Part shown: piece by piece, positions 2,841-19,269 of the stretch
Layout: every line of letters starts with the position of its first letter
How positions within the stretch are numbered: position 1 is the stretch's first letter
Virus record (IMG/VR): IMGVR_UViG_3300009553_000222
Location: 1 to 21,313 of that record
DNA: 21,313 bases
Source of the DNA: a virus
Strand: one strand, 5' to 3'
Notes under the pieces: model-generated
What the model saw: the letters and a program-made list of their open reading frames with translations, nothing else
Databases searched by the model: none
What the model was told of the DNA's origin: nothing
Program-made: the position numbers and the translations under genes

Positions 2841-4166
2841 TTACTTCATGTCCAGGATGTCGCGGTCTGAGGTCTTACGCCAATCGATTTTCTTAGGATC
2901 GAGAACCCTGCGTTGACCTGCTGCCGGAGTTTTACCTGCGCCACTTGGAAAAGTCCTCTTCTCGCTCTCAACTTTCAGCTTCACCTTGTCGTCTGAGGCT
3001 TCACGCTTTGAGCCGGTGCGCGAACTTACAGCCTCTTGTCTCAGGCGATTTCGCACCTGTGGAGCAATGAGTTTGGCGCGGTCCAGCCACGCGCGTTTTA
3101 TCCTGGACTTTGACTCACTGCTATATCCTGTCGATTCCGCCTTTTTCCAGAGTGCCCTTAAGCTACCCTGAAAAGCCTTATCCCCAAGGAGGATTTTATC
3201 GATTTCCGCACGAGCCTCCTTAAGAATCTGCTTACGTTCAAAGCCAGTCAGACCTTCCAGCTTATTACCCAGGATAGCGTTCATGTCTGGCTTGATTAGC
3301 TCTATCACATCTCCGAGCGCGGACTGGAATTTTTCTTTCGCGTAAGTCTCACGCTCTTGTGCAAGTTGGACTTCTGCGTCTGATGGCTCTGCTGCTTTCG
3401 TCTTCTTAGTGATATCAGGTATGTCACCACCATTAGCGAAAACAAAGTTAGCAAGATGCCTAGCAGCAAGCTGAAGGTTCTTATTTCCAACCTTTACTCC
3501 ATGTGCGCTTGCATGATACAGGAGTTCTTCGATGATAGGATTCGCCAACGCAAGATACGCGTCGGAGTCTATCTCCTTGAGATTATCACTAAAACCCGCA
3601 ACCATCTTCTTGAGGGCTTTAGGGTTATTCTCATTTAGAGTCGAGAGAAGAACTTTAGCGTCGCCCTTCCCTACTAACGTAGACTCTAGCGTATCGTATT
3701 CCTGCGCCTTAGCTACAGCCTCTCTAGCACTGTCAACATCAGCGAAGAGTTCGGCGTAGTGAGGATACTGAAAGAAGGCTGTCTTAAGCTGTGGAAAATC
3801 CTTAAACAGCTCAGGATACTTTGCCTTAATAGCCTTAATGGGAGGACGCGCATAAGCAGGAGTCTCCTCCTCTTCTCCCTCTCCAGACTCGATATCCTCT
3901 AACTCATCATCTTCGTCAGTATCTCCTTCTCCCTCTTCGCCTTCGCCCTCGTCCTTCTCACCTTCCGTATCTTCCTCAGCTCCAGCTCTATTCTTTCCAG
4001 CAGGAGTGCTATCTTTATCCGACTCTTCACTATCTGTCGCGTCTCCTGCTGTTTCATCGGCTGTACCCTCCAAGTCGTTCATGTCCTGTTCAAACTCAGA
4101 CGAAGCTCCTCCACCTGCGTCATCTTCAGGTGCATAGAGAGGATATTGCATGGACGGAATTGTCAT
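2841..4166 (-). CDS. Capsid scaffolding-like protein
   Basis: 441 residues between the portal and capsid genes, the usual place of a scaffold. Residues ~10-105 are extremely acidic and low in complexity (runs such as EGEKDEGEGEEGEGDTDEDD). The rest is helical and charged, and the last ~70 residues are basic (about 370-441), a pattern typical of scaffolds that bind coat protein through a basic C-terminal tail. The start overlaps the portal stop (ATGA at 4163-4166) and has a strong ribosome-binding site, AAGGAG, seven bases upstream, so its high expected output need not depend on coupling alone. No protease motif is seen. Confidence 0.7.
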   Translation of the reverse strand: MTIPSMQYPLYAPEDDAGGGASSEFEQDMNDLEGTADETAGDATDSEESDKDSTPAGKNRAGAEEDTEGEKDEGEGEEGEGDTDEDDELEDIESGEGEEEETPAYARPPIKAIKAKYPELFKDFPQLKTAFFQYPHYAELFADVDSAREAVAKAQEYDTLESTLVGKGDAKVLLSTLNENNPKALKKMVAGFSDNLKEIDSDAYLALANPIIEELLYHASAHGVKVGNKNLQLAARHLANFVFANGGDIPDITKKTKAAEPSDAEVQLAQERETYAKEKFQSALGDVIELIKPDMNAILGNKLEGLTGFERKQILKEARAEIDKILLGDKAFQGSLRALWKKAESTGYSSESKSRIKRAWLDRAKLIAPQVRNRLRQEAVSSRTGSKREASDDKVKLKVESEKRTFPSGAGKTPAAGQRRVLDPKKIDWRKTSDRDILDMK

Positions 4167-6553
4167 TCGACTGCTCCTTCTCGCTGTGTGTTATCTCCAC
4201 CCTTATCTGGGGGGTTCTTACTATCCTGTTCCTGCTGTTGCTGTTGCTGTGCCGCTTGTGCGTTAAAGAACTCGTGCATCTTTAGATGGCTCATGATATT
4301 CATGTAACCACCAGGGTTGTTGGCTTTAGCGTCGATGCCAACCTCTGACCGAAGCCAAGACTTGCATATCTCAGCTTCTACCATATTATCGTCGACTACG
4401 GGGTCAACTGGTATGGACGGCATCAACTGTGGTTGACCATCAGGACCCATCTGTCCGGTCTGCTGTGGTTCAGCCAATATCATCTGAGAGATTTCCCAGA
4501 GTTGCTTGTTACGACTATCGTCTCCGGGAATATGCAACTCGCTCAAGCCTATGACAGAAGCGATAAGTCCTGCGTTCTCTGGATGACCAAGGACTGAACC
4601 TATCATCGGGTCTTTCATCTGGATAAGGTTCAGGAGGACATCACGCTTCTGAGTCCAGCTAATCGGGAAAGGTTCTGCAATCTCAGGTGCGACCTCTCCT
4701 ACCTGACCGATAAGCTCGCTCTGTTTAATCCAGACGTTAATGAAGTTGGAGCCTTTCGACTGCACCATCTTCTCGTCTGTCTTCATGTGCTTAACGAAGC
4801 TATCCGTCGCCTTCTTCATCACCTGTGCCCACCACTCCTGCAAGATAGTCCAGTTAGTAGATAGGCGCTGTAGAGCAGACGCTTTAGACAATTCGTATTC
4901 GCGCGCGGTTCCAGATCCACCTTCCTGAGTACCACCGTAGATAGAAGGATAAGTTCCCTGCACAAACTGTTGGCGGTTATTCATCCTCTCTGCGAACATA
5001 TCTACTTCTCTCGATAGCGTCGTAGCCTTGACTTCATAGAAACTCTCACCAAGAGAACGACCAGCAGAAGCACTAGCAGGTGAAACCTGTCCAGGACGTA
5101 TCTCTTGCCTTTGATACGCCGTAAAGTCAAGTGTCTTAGGGTCTGCAAAGAGTTCCGGTAAACCAAACTCGATAGTCTCCAGCGTAAGGTTATCAAGTTC
5201 GTTCTCAATATCCTGAAGCGGGACCATCCCTCGACCAATAGGCGGCGCATGAAGAGTCTCAGCGAATGGGTTATCTGCAAGCGTCCAATGGTCGTCTATG
5301 GAGTCCTGAACTATCTCTACTATAAGGTTATCGTTGATTCTTACGCAGTAGATACCTTTAGTAAATTGTTCCTTAAGTGACTTGATTGTATCCTGGTCTC
5401 TCTGATAAAGATTCAGCGCCCACGGCCTAAACCAGAATCTCTGGACTGTACACATCTCATCAGGAATATCCCCCTTATAGACTGAGGAAATCCTCATGTC
5501 GGTGTCGTAACTACCGAGATTGGAAGACTGAATCTTATCAGCAAACTCAGGATAAATCTCTCTGAGAAGTGCTACAGGGAATTCATCCTCAAGACAGATG
5601 TAAGGTGTAGATACAAGCTCCTTAACATAAAGAGGAAGCTTTACATTCAGGGGACCGTATATCTCTAGAGTCTCTCTGTTTTTGGGGTTGTCAGTCTCCC
5701 CTGTCTGCATCTGGATAGAGCCAGGCTGGTTATCCTGCTCGGGCGGACCCTGATAGCCACAACTCTGGCACATACCCGGCTGAGGTGGTGGAAGTGGTTC
5801 TCCCTGTGGAAGTTGCTGAGGAGGAGCCATCTCTGCCCCACATTGGGGACAGTATGAGGACTGGTTTATAACTTCGATATCCTCAAAAACAGGAGTCGTG
5901 TAGCTGCCAAATCTAAAGTCGGTCTTGTTCTCGTTATAGCAGGCGACCATCCCACAGTTATACAGGAGATAAAGCGCCTTCATCATAAGGAGCTTCGACC
6001 TGTTATGTCTCTGGATTAGTTCGGAGAGCTTACTTCTGGACTTCGCGGCCTGGATGTCCTCGTGGTCGTCAGCATCCAGAGGGAAAAACCTAACAGTAGG
6101 AACACCACTAGAAAGAGCACCAATAAGAATCTCTCCATGAGCTTTGTAGATGTTAACTACTTTAGCGTAGATAGATGGGTCGATGTCTGATTGTGGGTCT
6201 TCATCTAGTATCTGCTCCGGTGTCTTCCACTGCTGAGAGCCTGCGTCCCACGCCGTATACTGTAAACCTTCCCAATAGTTAAAATGCTTTCTCCACTCCT
6301 TCATGTTCAGGTCGCGCGGGCCTTGGTCCTGTAGAAGGTAGTCATCGATAAGGATAGAGAGGATACGTGCTTCCTCTGTCTCATATATCGGCTGTGGAGC
6401 TGGTGCTTCTTCTGGTGTCTCCTCCTCAGGCGGCATCATCTGAGACATATCCATAGACGGGTCCTGTCCCTCTGCTGGTGGCAAAGTTCCAGCATCAGGA
6501 GGGGGCATCATCATAGAAGGGTCTTGAGGAGGCGGTTGCTGAGGAGGAAACAT
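4163..6553 (-). CDS. Portal protein with an inserted zinc ribbon
   Basis: 796 residues, within the range of large portals in podovirus-like phages. The portal forms the dodecameric DNA gate at the capsid vertex. The N-terminal ~55 residues are a disordered Pro/Met/Glu-rich tail, and the C-terminus is Gln-rich (QAAQQQQQQEQ). The assignment rests on size, position between large terminase and scaffold, and portal-like helical and charged segments. Residues 235-265 hold CPQC and CQSC knuckles separated by a Pro/Gln linker, a zinc-ribbon insertion that is unusual for a portal. Only ten bases separate its start from the stop of the upstream 81-residue gene. A modest AAGAGA precedes the ATG. Confidence 0.8.
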   Translation of the reverse strand: MFPPQQPPPQDPSMMMPPPDAGTLPPAEGQDPSMDMSQMMPPEEETPEEAPAPQPIYETEEARILSILIDDYLLQDQGPRDLNMKEWRKHFNYWEGLQYTAWDAGSQQWKTPEQILDEDPQSDIDPSIYAKVVNIYKAHGEILIGALSSGVPTVRFFPLDADDHEDIQAAKSRSKLSELIQRHNRSKLLMMKALYLLYNCGMVACYNENKTDFRFGSYTTPVFEDIEVINQSSYCPQCGAEMAPPQQLPQGEPLPPPQPGMCQSCGYQGPPEQDNQPGSIQMQTGETDNPKNRETLEIYGPLNVKLPLYVKELVSTPYICLEDEFPVALLREIYPEFADKIQSSNLGSYDTDMRISSVYKGDIPDEMCTVQRFWFRPWALNLYQRDQDTIKSLKEQFTKGIYCVRINDNLIVEIVQDSIDDHWTLADNPFAETLHAPPIGRGMVPLQDIENELDNLTLETIEFGLPELFADPKTLDFTAYQRQEIRPGQVSPASASAGRSLGESFYEVKATTLSREVDMFAERMNNRQQFVQGTYPSIYGGTQEGGSGTAREYELSKASALQRLSTNWTILQEWWAQVMKKATDSFVKHMKTDEKMVQSKGSNFINVWIKQSELIGQVGEVAPEIAEPFPISWTQKRDVLLNLIQMKDPMIGSVLGHPENAGLIASVIGLSELHIPGDDSRNKQLWEISQMILAEPQQTGQMGPDGQPQLMPSIPVDPVVDDNMVEAEICKSWLRSEVGIDAKANNPGGYMNIMSHLKMHEFFNAQAAQQQQQQEQDSKNPPDKGGDNTQREGAVE

Positions 6554-15703: not shown

Positions 15704-16045
15704 ATGAGAGATAAGGACATATCTTGTGAGGCCTGTGGCTTTGCTTTCCGTTATCACCATCGTAAGCGACTGCATAGTCATCATATTCGTCCTAAAGGGC
15801 ATGGTGGAGACGACACAGAAGCTAACAAGATATTACTATGTCCGAACTGCCATTCTATTGCTCATATTCTGTTATCTATGGCTCTTTATTCCGCAGGGAC
15901 TATAGACATTTACGACCTATATGAGCGCGGCTGGCTTATACACCAGATATCTAGATACCATAGAGATAAGCCTATGCAGCTAATAAGACGCGCGCTTAAG
16001 GTATTCCTCTATAACATACAAATAGTCCTAAGAATACCGTTTTAA
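15704..16045 (+). CDS. HNH endonuclease
   Basis: 113 residues. Cys8/Cys11 (CEAC) and Cys46/Cys49 (CPNC) form the zinc-holding knuckles, and between them lie HSHHIRPKGHGGDDTEANK with the general-base His pair (His26-His27) and Asn41, followed by His50 and His54 in CHSIAH. This is the classic HNH (beta-beta-alpha metal) nuclease core, as in phage homing or terminase-associated endonucleases. The C-terminal ~55 residues are basic and helical and could bind DNA. It is far from the terminase genes and has its own promoter, which favours a free-standing homing enzyme. Its stop codon TAA is the first triplet of the 25-bp inverted repeat at 16043-16067. Confidence 0.88.
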   Translation: MRDKDISCEACGFAFRYHHRKRLHSHHIRPKGHGGDDTEANKILLCPNCHSIAHILLSMALYSAGTIDIYDLYERGWLIHQISRYHRDKPMQLIRRALKVFLYNIQIVLRIPF

Positions 16046-16067: not shown

Positions 16068-16209
16068 TAGATAACCATCATTTGCTGTCTGCGCTCGAGC
16101 CCTAATCGTTACATCAAGCTATAATGAGAGGCTCCAGGACTCCTTTTAGTTGTATATGCCTATAAGGTTTGAACTCAAGCATACCTTATAGTTGTATATG
16201 GTTATAGCG
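16064..16209 (+). repeat. Motif array, block D (4 copies)
   Basis: Copies begin at 16064, 16108, 16149 and 16191, regularly spaced by 44, 41 and 42 bp. They fill the gap between the HNH gene and the promoter at 16245. A further inverted repeat (AATTGAC and GTCAATT, 16216-16222 and 16230-16236) follows. Confidence 0.8.
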
Positions 16210-16629: not shown

Positions 16630-17601
16630 ATGGAACACAAAAACGGTAACGATAGCGACTTCTTCCCCGACGACGATTTCGATAAGATGCTAGAGGAGAA
16701 GACAAGAGGATGGGACAAGGACTTATCGACGACAGAGATACTCGACTCGCAGAAGATAGTTCCGCAGGTCAGCGACCAGAAGATAGAGCGCGTCGGGAAG
16801 GAACCGATATCTGCCGAAAGTGTGGTGGAGACCTCGAACGAACCTACGTCTTCAACCGAGACTCACGAGGACGGCAATCCAAACCAGTCATTGTCTGTTC
16901 CAAGTGCGGACGCAGAAGCTAGACCTGGAATCGACCCTACACCAATCCACGCTTCTCCGATAACAACTGAAGAGGTCTCAGAACTCCTCTCAGACCCCGC
17001 CTACTCACGCGACATCATCGAAGGCAAGATAAAGAGGACAGCTATCCGCGGGATGGCAACAGGTCCATGGGCTAACCAGCACGTAGTCGAAGAGACGGTT
17101 AGCGAAGACCAGCTCCTCGACAAGCTGGGACATACAAAGCTCGCAGAGTTCTGGCGCGAAATAACTCGTGAGGCGCGCGAAAACTGCAAGGCCGACCCCG
17201 ATAAGCTTCTGGCCCATATCGAGAAGATGCAGGACGCAGCGTTCTGGAAAGAGTGGGAACTGAAGGCTTATCAGGCCGAACTCAACTTGGTCATCATGAA
17301 TGGCAATGAGACTGAGCGGAAGAAGGCAGAGATTGCCCTGTCCCGTATCTGGAAAGACCATAACTCCAGAGTCCAGCCCGACGGTTCACGGAAAAAGGCC
17401 AAAGCTTCTGGTGTAGCGGGCGAAGATAAGCCTAAGAAAGTCAAGGCTCTCGCTGCTGCTATTAAGACTGGCATCGACATGCTCCACGGCCTTAACTTTG
17501 GCTATGACCAGCTTATCGAGCGTTATAAAGTTACGAATAAGCTGGACGAAGCGACTCTCAACTACATTAACGAGAAGTACGGTCGCGGAGAATCGAACTA
17601 G
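16630..17601 (+). CDS. Hypothetical acidic protein (323 residues)
   Basis: GAGAGG and AGAGG precede ATG 16630. Residues 1-35 are acidic (DSDFFPDDDFDKMLEEK), residues ~36-105 are a Ser/Thr/Glu/Pro-rich low-complexity linker, and residues ~110-323 form a helical, Lys/Glu-rich domain (KLAEFWREITREARENC, AKASGVAGEDKPKKVKALAA). No family is recognised. The linker region is the part overlapped by a nested zinc-ribbon ORF (16710-16922). Its stop is three bases before the SNF2-like helicase start, so the two are co-transcribed and may act together in DNA transactions. Confidence 0.8.
   Translation: MEHKNGNDSDFFPDDDFDKMLEEKTRGWDKDLSTTEILDSQKIVPQVSDQKIERVGKEPISAESVVETSNEPTSSTETHEDGNPNQSLSVPSADAEARPGIDPTPIHASPITTEEVSELLSDPAYSRDIIEGKIKRTAIRGMATGPWANQHVVEETVSEDQLLDKLGHTKLAEFWREITREARENCKADPDKLLAHIEKMQDAAFWKEWELKAYQAELNLVIMNGNETERKKAEIALSRIWKDHNSRVQPDGSRKKAKASGVAGEDKPKKVKALAAAIKTGIDMLHGLNFGYDQLIERYKVTNKLDEATLNYINEKYGRGESN
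16710..16922 (+). CDS. Nested out-of-frame ORF with zinc ribbon (70 residues)
   Basis: In a different frame from the 323-residue gene, ATG 16710 opens 70 codons. Residues ~34-68 read as a zinc ribbon: CRKC (Cys35/Cys38), a beta-type middle (GGDLERTYVFNRDSRGRQS), then CSKC (Cys62/Cys65) followed by GRRS and the stop. Spacing and the CxxCG knuckles look genuine. The first 33 residues are charged and disordered. A GAGGAG lies 11 bases upstream. An in-frame stop near 16682 rules out a long upstream extension. Either both frames are used, or one is chance; the host frame here is low-complexity and would tolerate overprinting. Confidence 0.45.
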   Translation: MGQGLIDDRDTRLAEDSSAGQRPEDRARREGTDICRKCGGDLERTYVFNRDSRGRQSKPVIVCSKCGRRS

Positions 17602-17604
17602 ACT

Positions 17605-19269
17605 ATGGCATCAACAATCTTAGTCCGCAAGTGCATTAACTGCGGCAAAACCGTCAAGGAAATCTCCAGATATACCAACGAAGGTTATATCTACATCACG
17701 AACGAATGTGGACACGAACTTATCCTCGAAGCCAAAGCAGAGGCAGAGGATGTGGCTATCGTGTCCAAGGATGGTCGTGAGCCTTTCAAATATCAGTGGG
17801 ATACGACCTACTTCATGGAGAAGGCGGACTGCAACGGTCTTATCCTTCACGAGCAGGGACTAGGCAAGACCATCATCGCGTGTATGCTTATCCTTCGTAA
17901 CAAGAAGGACCTGCTTCCAGCGTTGGTTGTTTGCCCGTCAGGACTCAGACCACAGTGGGCATCAGAGATTGTTCGTTGGACTGGCATCATGCCACAGATT
18001 ATTACGTCCAGCAACGATAAGCCGATGTTCGAAGTTTTCCCAATCGTTCTGGTCAGCGTCGATACTCTTAGACTTCTCAGGCCAGACGTTGGTGGAGTCG
18101 AGGAGGAATGGGATTGGGATAGCAACCAGCCTGTTAAGGTGACGAAGAAGCCACTGTGGGACGATAAGCTTATTGGCAAGTTTAAGTTTATCTGCGTAGA
18201 CGAGTCCCACAAGATTAAGAATACGGCTTCTGCCAGGACTCGAGCACTCCGTAAGATAGCCGAACTCGCTAACGGCGGGAAGAAGGCGCGCGTCATCTGC
18301 ATGTCAGGGACGAATATCGAGAAGCACGCTGGAGAGTTCTTTGTTACTCTCAACATCGTGCGACCTGAACTCTTCCCAGTTGAGGCACAGTTTAAGCTGC
18401 GTCACTGTGAGGTCTCTCCGGAGTCAGGTAAGATTGGCGGCCTTAAGAATCCACAAGCGTTTAAGGCTCTGACTGAAGACTTCATCATCCGGTATAAGCG
18501 CGCGGATGTGCTGCCGGACCTGCCTAAGGTCTTCAGGACGTTCCAGTTAGCAGAGATGGAAGATAACGACTTCCTCAAAGAATACATCGCAGTAGTCAAA
18601 GAGTTCCAGGACTACATGGATGATATCAAGAAGCTGAAGAACACGACAGATATTCTTGGTTATCTCTCGAGGATGCGCCATATCACGGGAGTCGCGAAGG
18701 TCAATGCGGCCAACGACTTCATCGAAGACTTCCTGCTGAGCACTGAGAACGACGAGAAACTCGTAGTCTTCCTGCACCATAAGAAGGCTGCGGTCCATCT
18801 GCTCGAGAAGCTCTCCAAGACGATGGCAGAGGGAGCGTATAATCCTCCTCTCTACTACAGCGCAGAACTCGACGTGAACGCTCGCGATGAGATGGTCGAG
18901 GAGTTTAAGAAGCCGGGGAATCGTATTATGATTGCCGCGACTGGAGCAGCAGGAACGGGTCTTAACCTGCAATTCTGCTCACACTGCCTCATCATGGAAC
19001 GTCAGTGGAATCCGTCTACAGAAGAGCAGGCGGAAGGACGTTTCCCCAGGCCAGGGTCTACAGCGAGCAAGGTTATGGCGACATACCTTATTGCTGCTGG
19101 AACCATCGACGACTTCCTGACTCAGATTGTCGAAGAGAAGCGCAAGAACATGGCGAACACTCTGGACTACGAGGAAGGCAAGTGGGATGAGGCGAGTCTT
19201 ATGAAGCAGCTCGCAGATGTTCTCGCGTCGAAGGGACTGAATCGCTGGAGGTTAGGTAGTAAGCGGTAG
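17605..19269 (+). CDS. SNF2-like superfamily 2 helicase/ATPase
   Basis: 554 residues, a compact SNF2-type motor using ATP to move along duplex DNA. Visible motifs: Q-like and Walker A HEQGLGKT (82-89), DESH (199-202), motif III SGT (234-236), motif IV region VVFLHHKKAAVHLLEKL (~387-403), motif V TGLNLQ (451-456) and motif VI EEQAEGRFPRPG (473-484). An N-terminal CINC (Cys10/Cys13) with CGH (Cys35, His37) suggests a small zinc knuckle before the motor. No nuclease domain is seen. The start lies three bases after the previous stop and has no clear ribosome-binding site, so coupling is likely. A terminator follows at 19291. Likely roles are replication, repair or recombination of phage DNA. Confidence 0.9.
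   Translation: MASTILVRKCINCGKTVKEISRYTNEGYIYITNECGHELILEAKAEAEDVAIVSKDGREPFKYQWDTTYFMEKADCNGLILHEQGLGKTIIACMLILRNKKDLLPALVVCPSGLRPQWASEIVRWTGIMPQIITSSNDKPMFEVFPIVLVSVDTLRLLRPDVGGVEEEWDWDSNQPVKVTKKPLWDDKLIGKFKFICVDESHKIKNTASARTRALRKIAELANGGKKARVICMSGTNIEKHAGEFFVTLNIVRPELFPVEAQFKLRHCEVSPESGKIGGLKNPQAFKALTEDFIIRYKRADVLPDLPKVFRTFQLAEMEDNDFLKEYIAVVKEFQDYMDDIKKLKNTTDILGYLSRMRHITGVAKVNAANDFIEDFLLSTENDEKLVVFLHHKKAAVHLLEKLSKTMAEGAYNPPLYYSAELDVNARDEMVEEFKKPGNRIMIAATGAAGTGLNLQFCSHCLIMERQWNPSTEEQAEGRFPRPGSTASKVMATYLIAAGTIDDFLTQIVEEKRKNMANTLDYEEGKWDEASLMKQLADVLASKGLNRWRLGSKR

Follow-up and report, generated by a model that had tools for sequence, protein, structure and literature searches.

A predicted zinc-ribbon gene nested, in a second reading frame, within the gene that precedes an SNF2-type helicase in a clade of phages

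The embedded gene and its host gene

The DNA analysed here (the window) is a virus record of 21,313 bases; since its genes include those of a terminase and of a major head protein, its source is most likely a tailed phage. On the plus strand, an ORF at positions 16630–17601, here called the host gene, begins with ATG, encodes 323 amino acids, and ends with TAG; it is followed at 17605–19269 (+) by the gene for a 554-residue SNF2-family helicase (Pfam SNF2-rel_dom, 2.3e-22, and Helicase_C, 1e-13; PHROG DNA helicase, 3.6e-73). A second ORF, at 16710–16922 on the same strand, lies entirely within the host gene in a different frame. Its ATG is 80 nt downstream of the host ATG, which places it in the +2 (= −1) frame of the host ORF, and it encodes 70 amino acids (MGQGLIDDRDTRLAEDSSAGQRPEDRARREGTDICRKCGGDLERTYVFNRDSRGRQSKPVIVCSKCGRRS) before a TAG. 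In its own frame it is bounded upstream by a TAA at 16683–16685 (+), with eight open codons between this stop and the ATG. An initial annotation, made from this DNA alone, had described a 70-codon frame inside a 323-residue gene and had proposed that the smaller frame may be a genuine overlapping zinc-ribbon phage gene. Both ORFs are present, and the reading is supported by the conservation, leave-one-out homology, and codon-position bias described below. We conclude from the ORF call, conservation, and profile searches that 16710–16922 is very probably a true protein-coding gene with a predicted product, lying out of frame upstream of the SNF2-type helicase. By computation the embedded gene is real, and its role and history are less certain than its coding status. 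Textbook examples of embedded genes in phages are lysis proteins, and to our knowledge few embedded genes are well supported. Gene-calling programs that forbid full overlap would probably miss the nested gene in these phages. Literature searches, which covered phage genes that overlap or are nested as well as the combination of SNF2 helicases and zinc ribbons, turned up no description of this pair.

The nested protein carries two CxxC knuckles, arranged as CRKC-x24-CSKC at residues 35–66 (16812–16907, +), so that 32 residues span the first to the last Cys, and these Cys residues are invariant across the nested proteins. The initial annotation had recognized both knuckles but had given 23 rather than 24 residues between them. 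In an AlphaFold2 model, the strands of a beta hairpin occupy residues 41–48 and 57–63, with pLDDT values of about 76–85 across residues 31–70 and a mean of 68.8 for the whole protein; in this model, residues 31–70 are a zinc ribbon, and metal binding is predicted. The closest structural neighbours of the model are RPB9 ribbons (Z 3.0, 35 residues, rmsd 1.6). Like the TFIIS/RPB9-type ribbons, which are of similar length, it has a pair of CxxC knuckles that a beta hairpin is predicted to carry. The resemblance would be one of fold only, and the matches are weak: the nested profile matches the ribbon 1qyp with weak statistics (E 0.0022, 17% identity), the Foldseek match to this type has E 0.33, and all Pfam hits of the window's nested protein fall below the curated cut-offs (best E 0.001–0.01). 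Matches of the nested protein in PHROG are weak as well.

From the ORF, AlphaFold2, and homologues, the host protein is predicted to consist of a short N-terminal helix, a disordered linker that is read in two frames, and a C-terminal helical domain. Its AlphaFold2 model is poor overall (mean pLDDT 52), with pLDDT below 50 over residues 28–117 and a C-terminal side that is helical at low confidence. The host residues opposite the ribbon, SAESVVETSNEPTSSTETHEDGNPNQSLSVPSA, are rich in Ser, Thr, and Glu, and together with the low pLDDT they bear out the earlier description of the overlap as a low-complexity linker. The host protein would tolerate the overlap because the stretch that the two genes share appears to be disordered in it, linking the N-terminal helix to the helical domain at the C-terminus.

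Several other features of the window were noticed. An HNH endonuclease gene (15704–16045, +; Pfam PF01844, E 1.3e-10) lies just 5' of the nested/host gene module, and L007, L015, and L016 each encode a counterpart of its product (about 50% identity). A dispersed repeat around TTATAGTTGTATATGCCTATAAGG occupies 12125–14366 and 16103–16206, with 13 copies of a 20-nt form and ten of a 24-nt form; it also occurs in inverted orientation and sits in gene-poor DNA and just 5' of the genes of the nested/host pair, and its copies may be promoters or operators of the phage. Encoded between the terminase and capsid genes, a 796-residue protein (4163–6553, −) with a zinc-ribbon-like insert, CPQCG...CQSCG, is probably the portal, judging by gene position, and PHROGs gave no match for it. 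A 128-residue ORF at 11019–11405 (+) resembles GIY-YIG nucleases by eye (GWYKNSRYLYIGQS...).

Distribution and conservation

A search with the host protein alone matched only a 47.7 kb IMG/VR contig that is nearly identical to the window (four mismatches in 12,684 shared bases). Scans with the terminase and capsid yielded 30 records, including contigs L009, L010, and L015, in which tblastn found the helicase at 61–69% identity and the host protein at 22–29%; the nested protein itself was found at 39% identity (E ~2e-9) in L015/L038. Because the host gene was recovered in only two of these 30 records by genome search, with a weak homologue in two more by tblastn, either phages that resemble one another in their structural genes differ in having the module, or it lies beyond the ends of short contigs. 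A search with the helicase alignment gave 109 related loci, 80 of which were taken into the analysis, and a search with the clade alignment gave 18, with L214 and L225 as new ones among them. The helicase start was known at 74 loci, and 68 of these had at least 900 nt of upstream DNA. A strictly nested CxxC..CxxC ORF is present at 14 of the 68 and absent from 54, and the 14 IMG/VR loci are exactly the helicase clade of the window; at all of them, the SNF2-type helicase gene is directly downstream of the host gene. They represent nine distinct host-gene sequences, including that of the window: L051, L052, and L053 are identical, as are L058, L059, and L060, the L225 host protein equals that of L058, and L061 differs only slightly from L058. 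The truncated locus L054, cut at a contig end, keeps the second knuckle (CSKCG) in the matching relative frame, and L064, L077, and L086 start within the helicase. In a helicase tree of 65 rows, made by a quick search with several near-copies left out, the window clade forms one branch (SH-aLRT 100; 11 rows, including L054), which argues for a single origin and long retention of the nested ORF. Within the clade, helicase identity falls to 45%, and the host proteins are 16–32% identical to that of the window. Every relative is a metagenomic contig. Among isolate phages, the host protein had no match and the nested protein had one unconvincing match (Rhizobium phage RHph_N65, E 0.9); among prokaryote genomes, one scan with the helicase alignment found distant SNF2 relatives (best full-length, 24–27% identical) and no members of the clade.

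All nine of the fully readable distinct host genes keep the nested ORF, its ATG, the +2 frame, and all four Cys, and the ribbon motif CxxCGG...CxxC is in the same +2 frame at each of the 14 clade loci with readable upstream DNA. Across the clade, the nested start lies 80–128 nt 3' of the host start. We looked for relatives that keep the large frame while breaking the nested frame or losing its Cys codons, as the initial annotation had proposed, and found none among the nine distinct sequences. The host frame is likewise open across the overlap in all nine, between an N-terminal motif and a C-terminal domain that they have in common. This openness is by itself weak evidence, because shuffling inside the nested gene always leaves the host frame open in seven of the nine genes; when codons were resampled by gene usage, it was open in 7–61% of draws per gene.

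That the nested ORF is a product of chance, with the Glu/Ser/Thr-rich host linker simply reading as Cys, Gly, and Arg codons in the +2 frame, is hardly credible. One sequence alone would be weak evidence for a gene, and the +2 frame is indeed biased by what the host gene encodes: when the codons of the window's copy were synonymously shuffled 20,000 times, 293 of the shuffles gave ATG-started +2 ORFs of at least 53 codons. None gave such an ORF with CxxC-x(8,45)-CxxC. When each of the nine host genes was shuffled 20,000 times (180,000 in total), +2 ORFs with CxxC..CxxC numbered 0, 2, 0, 2, 18, 2, 6, 7, and 1 per 20,000, and an ORF with the fuller motif CxxCGG..CxxC, which all nine distinct relatives keep, was never produced. 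The original argument that a chance origin was unlikely is therefore upheld by the shuffles of the window's gene and by the recurrence of ORF, frame, and motif in relatives. A homology search had also been proposed for the 70-residue product, and the nested proteins do recover one another: with leave-one-out profiles, eight of eight were found among 4,401 ORFs at E values from 2.4e-8 (that of the window) to 1.2e-12, the best unrelated ORF in these searches having E values of 0.0076 to 0.17. This homology and the codon-position bias of the nested proteins both speak against chance, which the conservation refutes, and the helicase tree contradicts the idea that the relatives are one recent sequence.

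The same proposal had extended to constraint on synonymous sites in the overlap, and this was seen as a codon-position bias. Differences in the ribbon at nested codon positions 1, 2, and 3 number 79, 70, and 116, as compared with 681, 568, and 840 at host codon positions 1, 2, and 3 downstream, where the counts are summed over pairs with shared sequences (three non-overlapping pairs alone give a chi2 p of 7e-5). In other words, ribbon substitutions favour the nested wobble position, which is host codon position 2. Nested identity exceeds host identity in seven of seven pairs, and the nested protein is, on these computations, under purifying selection. Between L058 and L061 there is one difference in the overlap, which alters the host residue and is silent in the nested frame, against 76 downstream and one in the 41 codons upstream. 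This low rate proves little because the upstream part is equally conserved, and it could be explained by a recombination tract.

Initiation and distant homologues

In eight distinct sequences, a stop in the nested frame lies 0–10 codons 5' of the nested ATG: TGA abuts it (TGA-ATG) in L051, L056, and L057, and the stop is 5–10 codons before it in the window, L050, L055, L058, and L061. Therefore, translation would have to start at the nested ATG or nearby, and in the three TGA-ATG lineages the nested protein cannot arise by an N-terminal frameshift from the host gene. Judging from the sequence, the nested gene would thus have its own initiation, with ribosomes starting at 16630 for the 323-residue protein and also internally at 16710 for the 70-residue ribbon. 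The locus L214 keeps the nested ATG although the host Trp codon has become a Cys codon, and the chance of ATG retention given the host amino acids, multiplied over eight lineages, is about 10^-3.8. A proposed ribosome-binding site, AGGAG at 16694–16698 (+), lies 11 nt before the ATG (anti-Shine-Dalgarno duplex, −9.1 kcal/mol); it is suggestive only, because the spacing is long and 494 of 2000 synonymous shuffles attain its duplex strength. AGGAG-like sites precede the nested ATG in most lineages, with weak pairing in L056 and L058, and in no lineage is the Shine-Dalgarno strength above that of the synonymous shuffles.

Outside the clade, a profile of the host protein found, among 4,401 ORFs, the L075 gene at 2354–2932 (E 1.1e-6), one ORF at E 0.0095, and nothing else. 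The L075 gene lies some way upstream of the helicase of that locus. In hhalign comparisons, the host profile scored 93% with L075, a weak 60–68% with groups A and B, and below 35% with groups C and D, L066, L067, and L071. Both the L075 gene and its relative L228 have an in-frame N-terminal CxxC..CxxC, and at 40 of the 54 non-clade loci an upstream ORF of at least 120 residues has an in-frame CxxC..CxxC, though some of these ORFs may not be homologues. The nested profile does not single out the in-frame ribbons of the distant loci and gives no sequence link to them.

Two further observations concern ribbons near such genes. In L229, another relative of L075, the main frame has no N-terminal ribbon, and a 28-codon Cys-rich ORF (3864–3950; CRIC...CDC.CSTC) overlaps the gene start in another frame; this case is one sequence and may reflect either faulty assembly or another decoupling of a ribbon. 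In L050, the closest relative of the window, a separate zinc-ribbon-like ORF (3208–3489; CPFCGSGN...CKDCGQE) lies upstream of the host gene, and no counterpart was noticed in the window.

Possible role and history

The ribbon could, in principle, be translated as part of a frameshift product. Ribosomes in the host frame might slip by −1 and enter the ribbon, or those translating the ribbon might move by +1 back to the host frame and so make a fusion of the ribbon with the helical domain, resembling the protein of distant homologues. The nested frame is indeed −1 relative to the host frame, and the host C-terminal domain is homologous to the L075 gene with its in-frame N-terminal ribbon. However, a −1 fusion is excluded or confined by the TGA-ATG of three of eight sequences and the stops 5–10 codons upstream in the other five, and no common site for a +1 shift is seen, because the nested stops have no motif in common around them and lie at varied distances from the last Cys, with tails of 4 to 29 residues. 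Translation by frameshifting is accordingly improbable. It is a good deal easier to imagine, though still somewhat doubtful, that the nested gene is real and unrelated to the helicase, encoding a free-standing effector (for example, an inhibitor of the host polymerase or of defence) for which the linker merely provides space. Small phage proteins often target host factors, and the ribbon has a generic fold, closest in structure to RNA-polymerase ribbons of the RPB9/TFIIS type. On the other hand, the nested gene is seen only beside the SNF2-type helicase, at one position and throughout a whole clade (in searches with the helicase as their anchor), and the ribbon of a distant homologue of the host gene is in frame. 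Because distant homologues of the host gene carry such a ribbon near a helicase, we tentatively favour another role, drawn from gene order and fold: the ribbon may be a nucleic-acid- or protein-binding module that acts in trans, alongside the host protein and the helicase, and replaces the in-frame N-terminal ribbon of the distant homologues.

Two histories fit the present genes: either the ribbon domain was relocated to another frame, or the linker was newly overprinted with a ribbon ORF. It is conceivable, though doubtful, that an ancestral protein encoded next to the helicase had an N-terminal ribbon, that a frame change shifted this ribbon to an overlapping ORF, and that the old stretch came to be re-read as a new disordered linker; if so, this phage clade uses two frames of one DNA stretch for what is a single polypeptide in its distant relatives. 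Codon usage gives no age for the frames, since in most genes both overlap frames lie between the coding and control values. In two papers, overlapping proteins are described as enriched in disorder, and the younger out-of-frame genes in disorder-promoting residues (PMC8227390, PMC6139136). Because the disordered product here is the host linker, this analogy would favour a ribbon that is older than the linker. The order of the frames is testable with the nine gene sequences and the distant homologue with its in-frame ribbon.

Among known systems, the lambda Rz/Rz1 genes offer a parallel. The o-spanin gene is embedded in the +1 frame of the i-spanin gene, and overlapped, separated, and single-protein versions exist (PMC6139136). 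In both systems, a larger partner gene wholly contains a small one in another frame, proteins with related functions are fused elsewhere, and the overlapped segment of the partner is the divergent one. Unlike Rz/Rz1, the present pair is a zinc ribbon beside a helicase, with the overlap in the 5' rather than the 3' part of the host gene and in the +2 frame. The traits of a two-component spanin, a lipobox in the nested product and a transmembrane segment in the host product, were not seen by eye in the translations, nor was a membrane anchor in either. Gene E of PhiX174, inside gene D, is likewise an internal overlap in a bacterial virus that yields two proteins from one stretch of DNA; E is a membrane lysis protein (PMC8227390), whereas the nested product described here is predicted to fold as a metal-binding domain. 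The usual case is reversed, with a nested product that is conserved and predicted to be folded and a host product that is predicted to be disordered where the two overlap.
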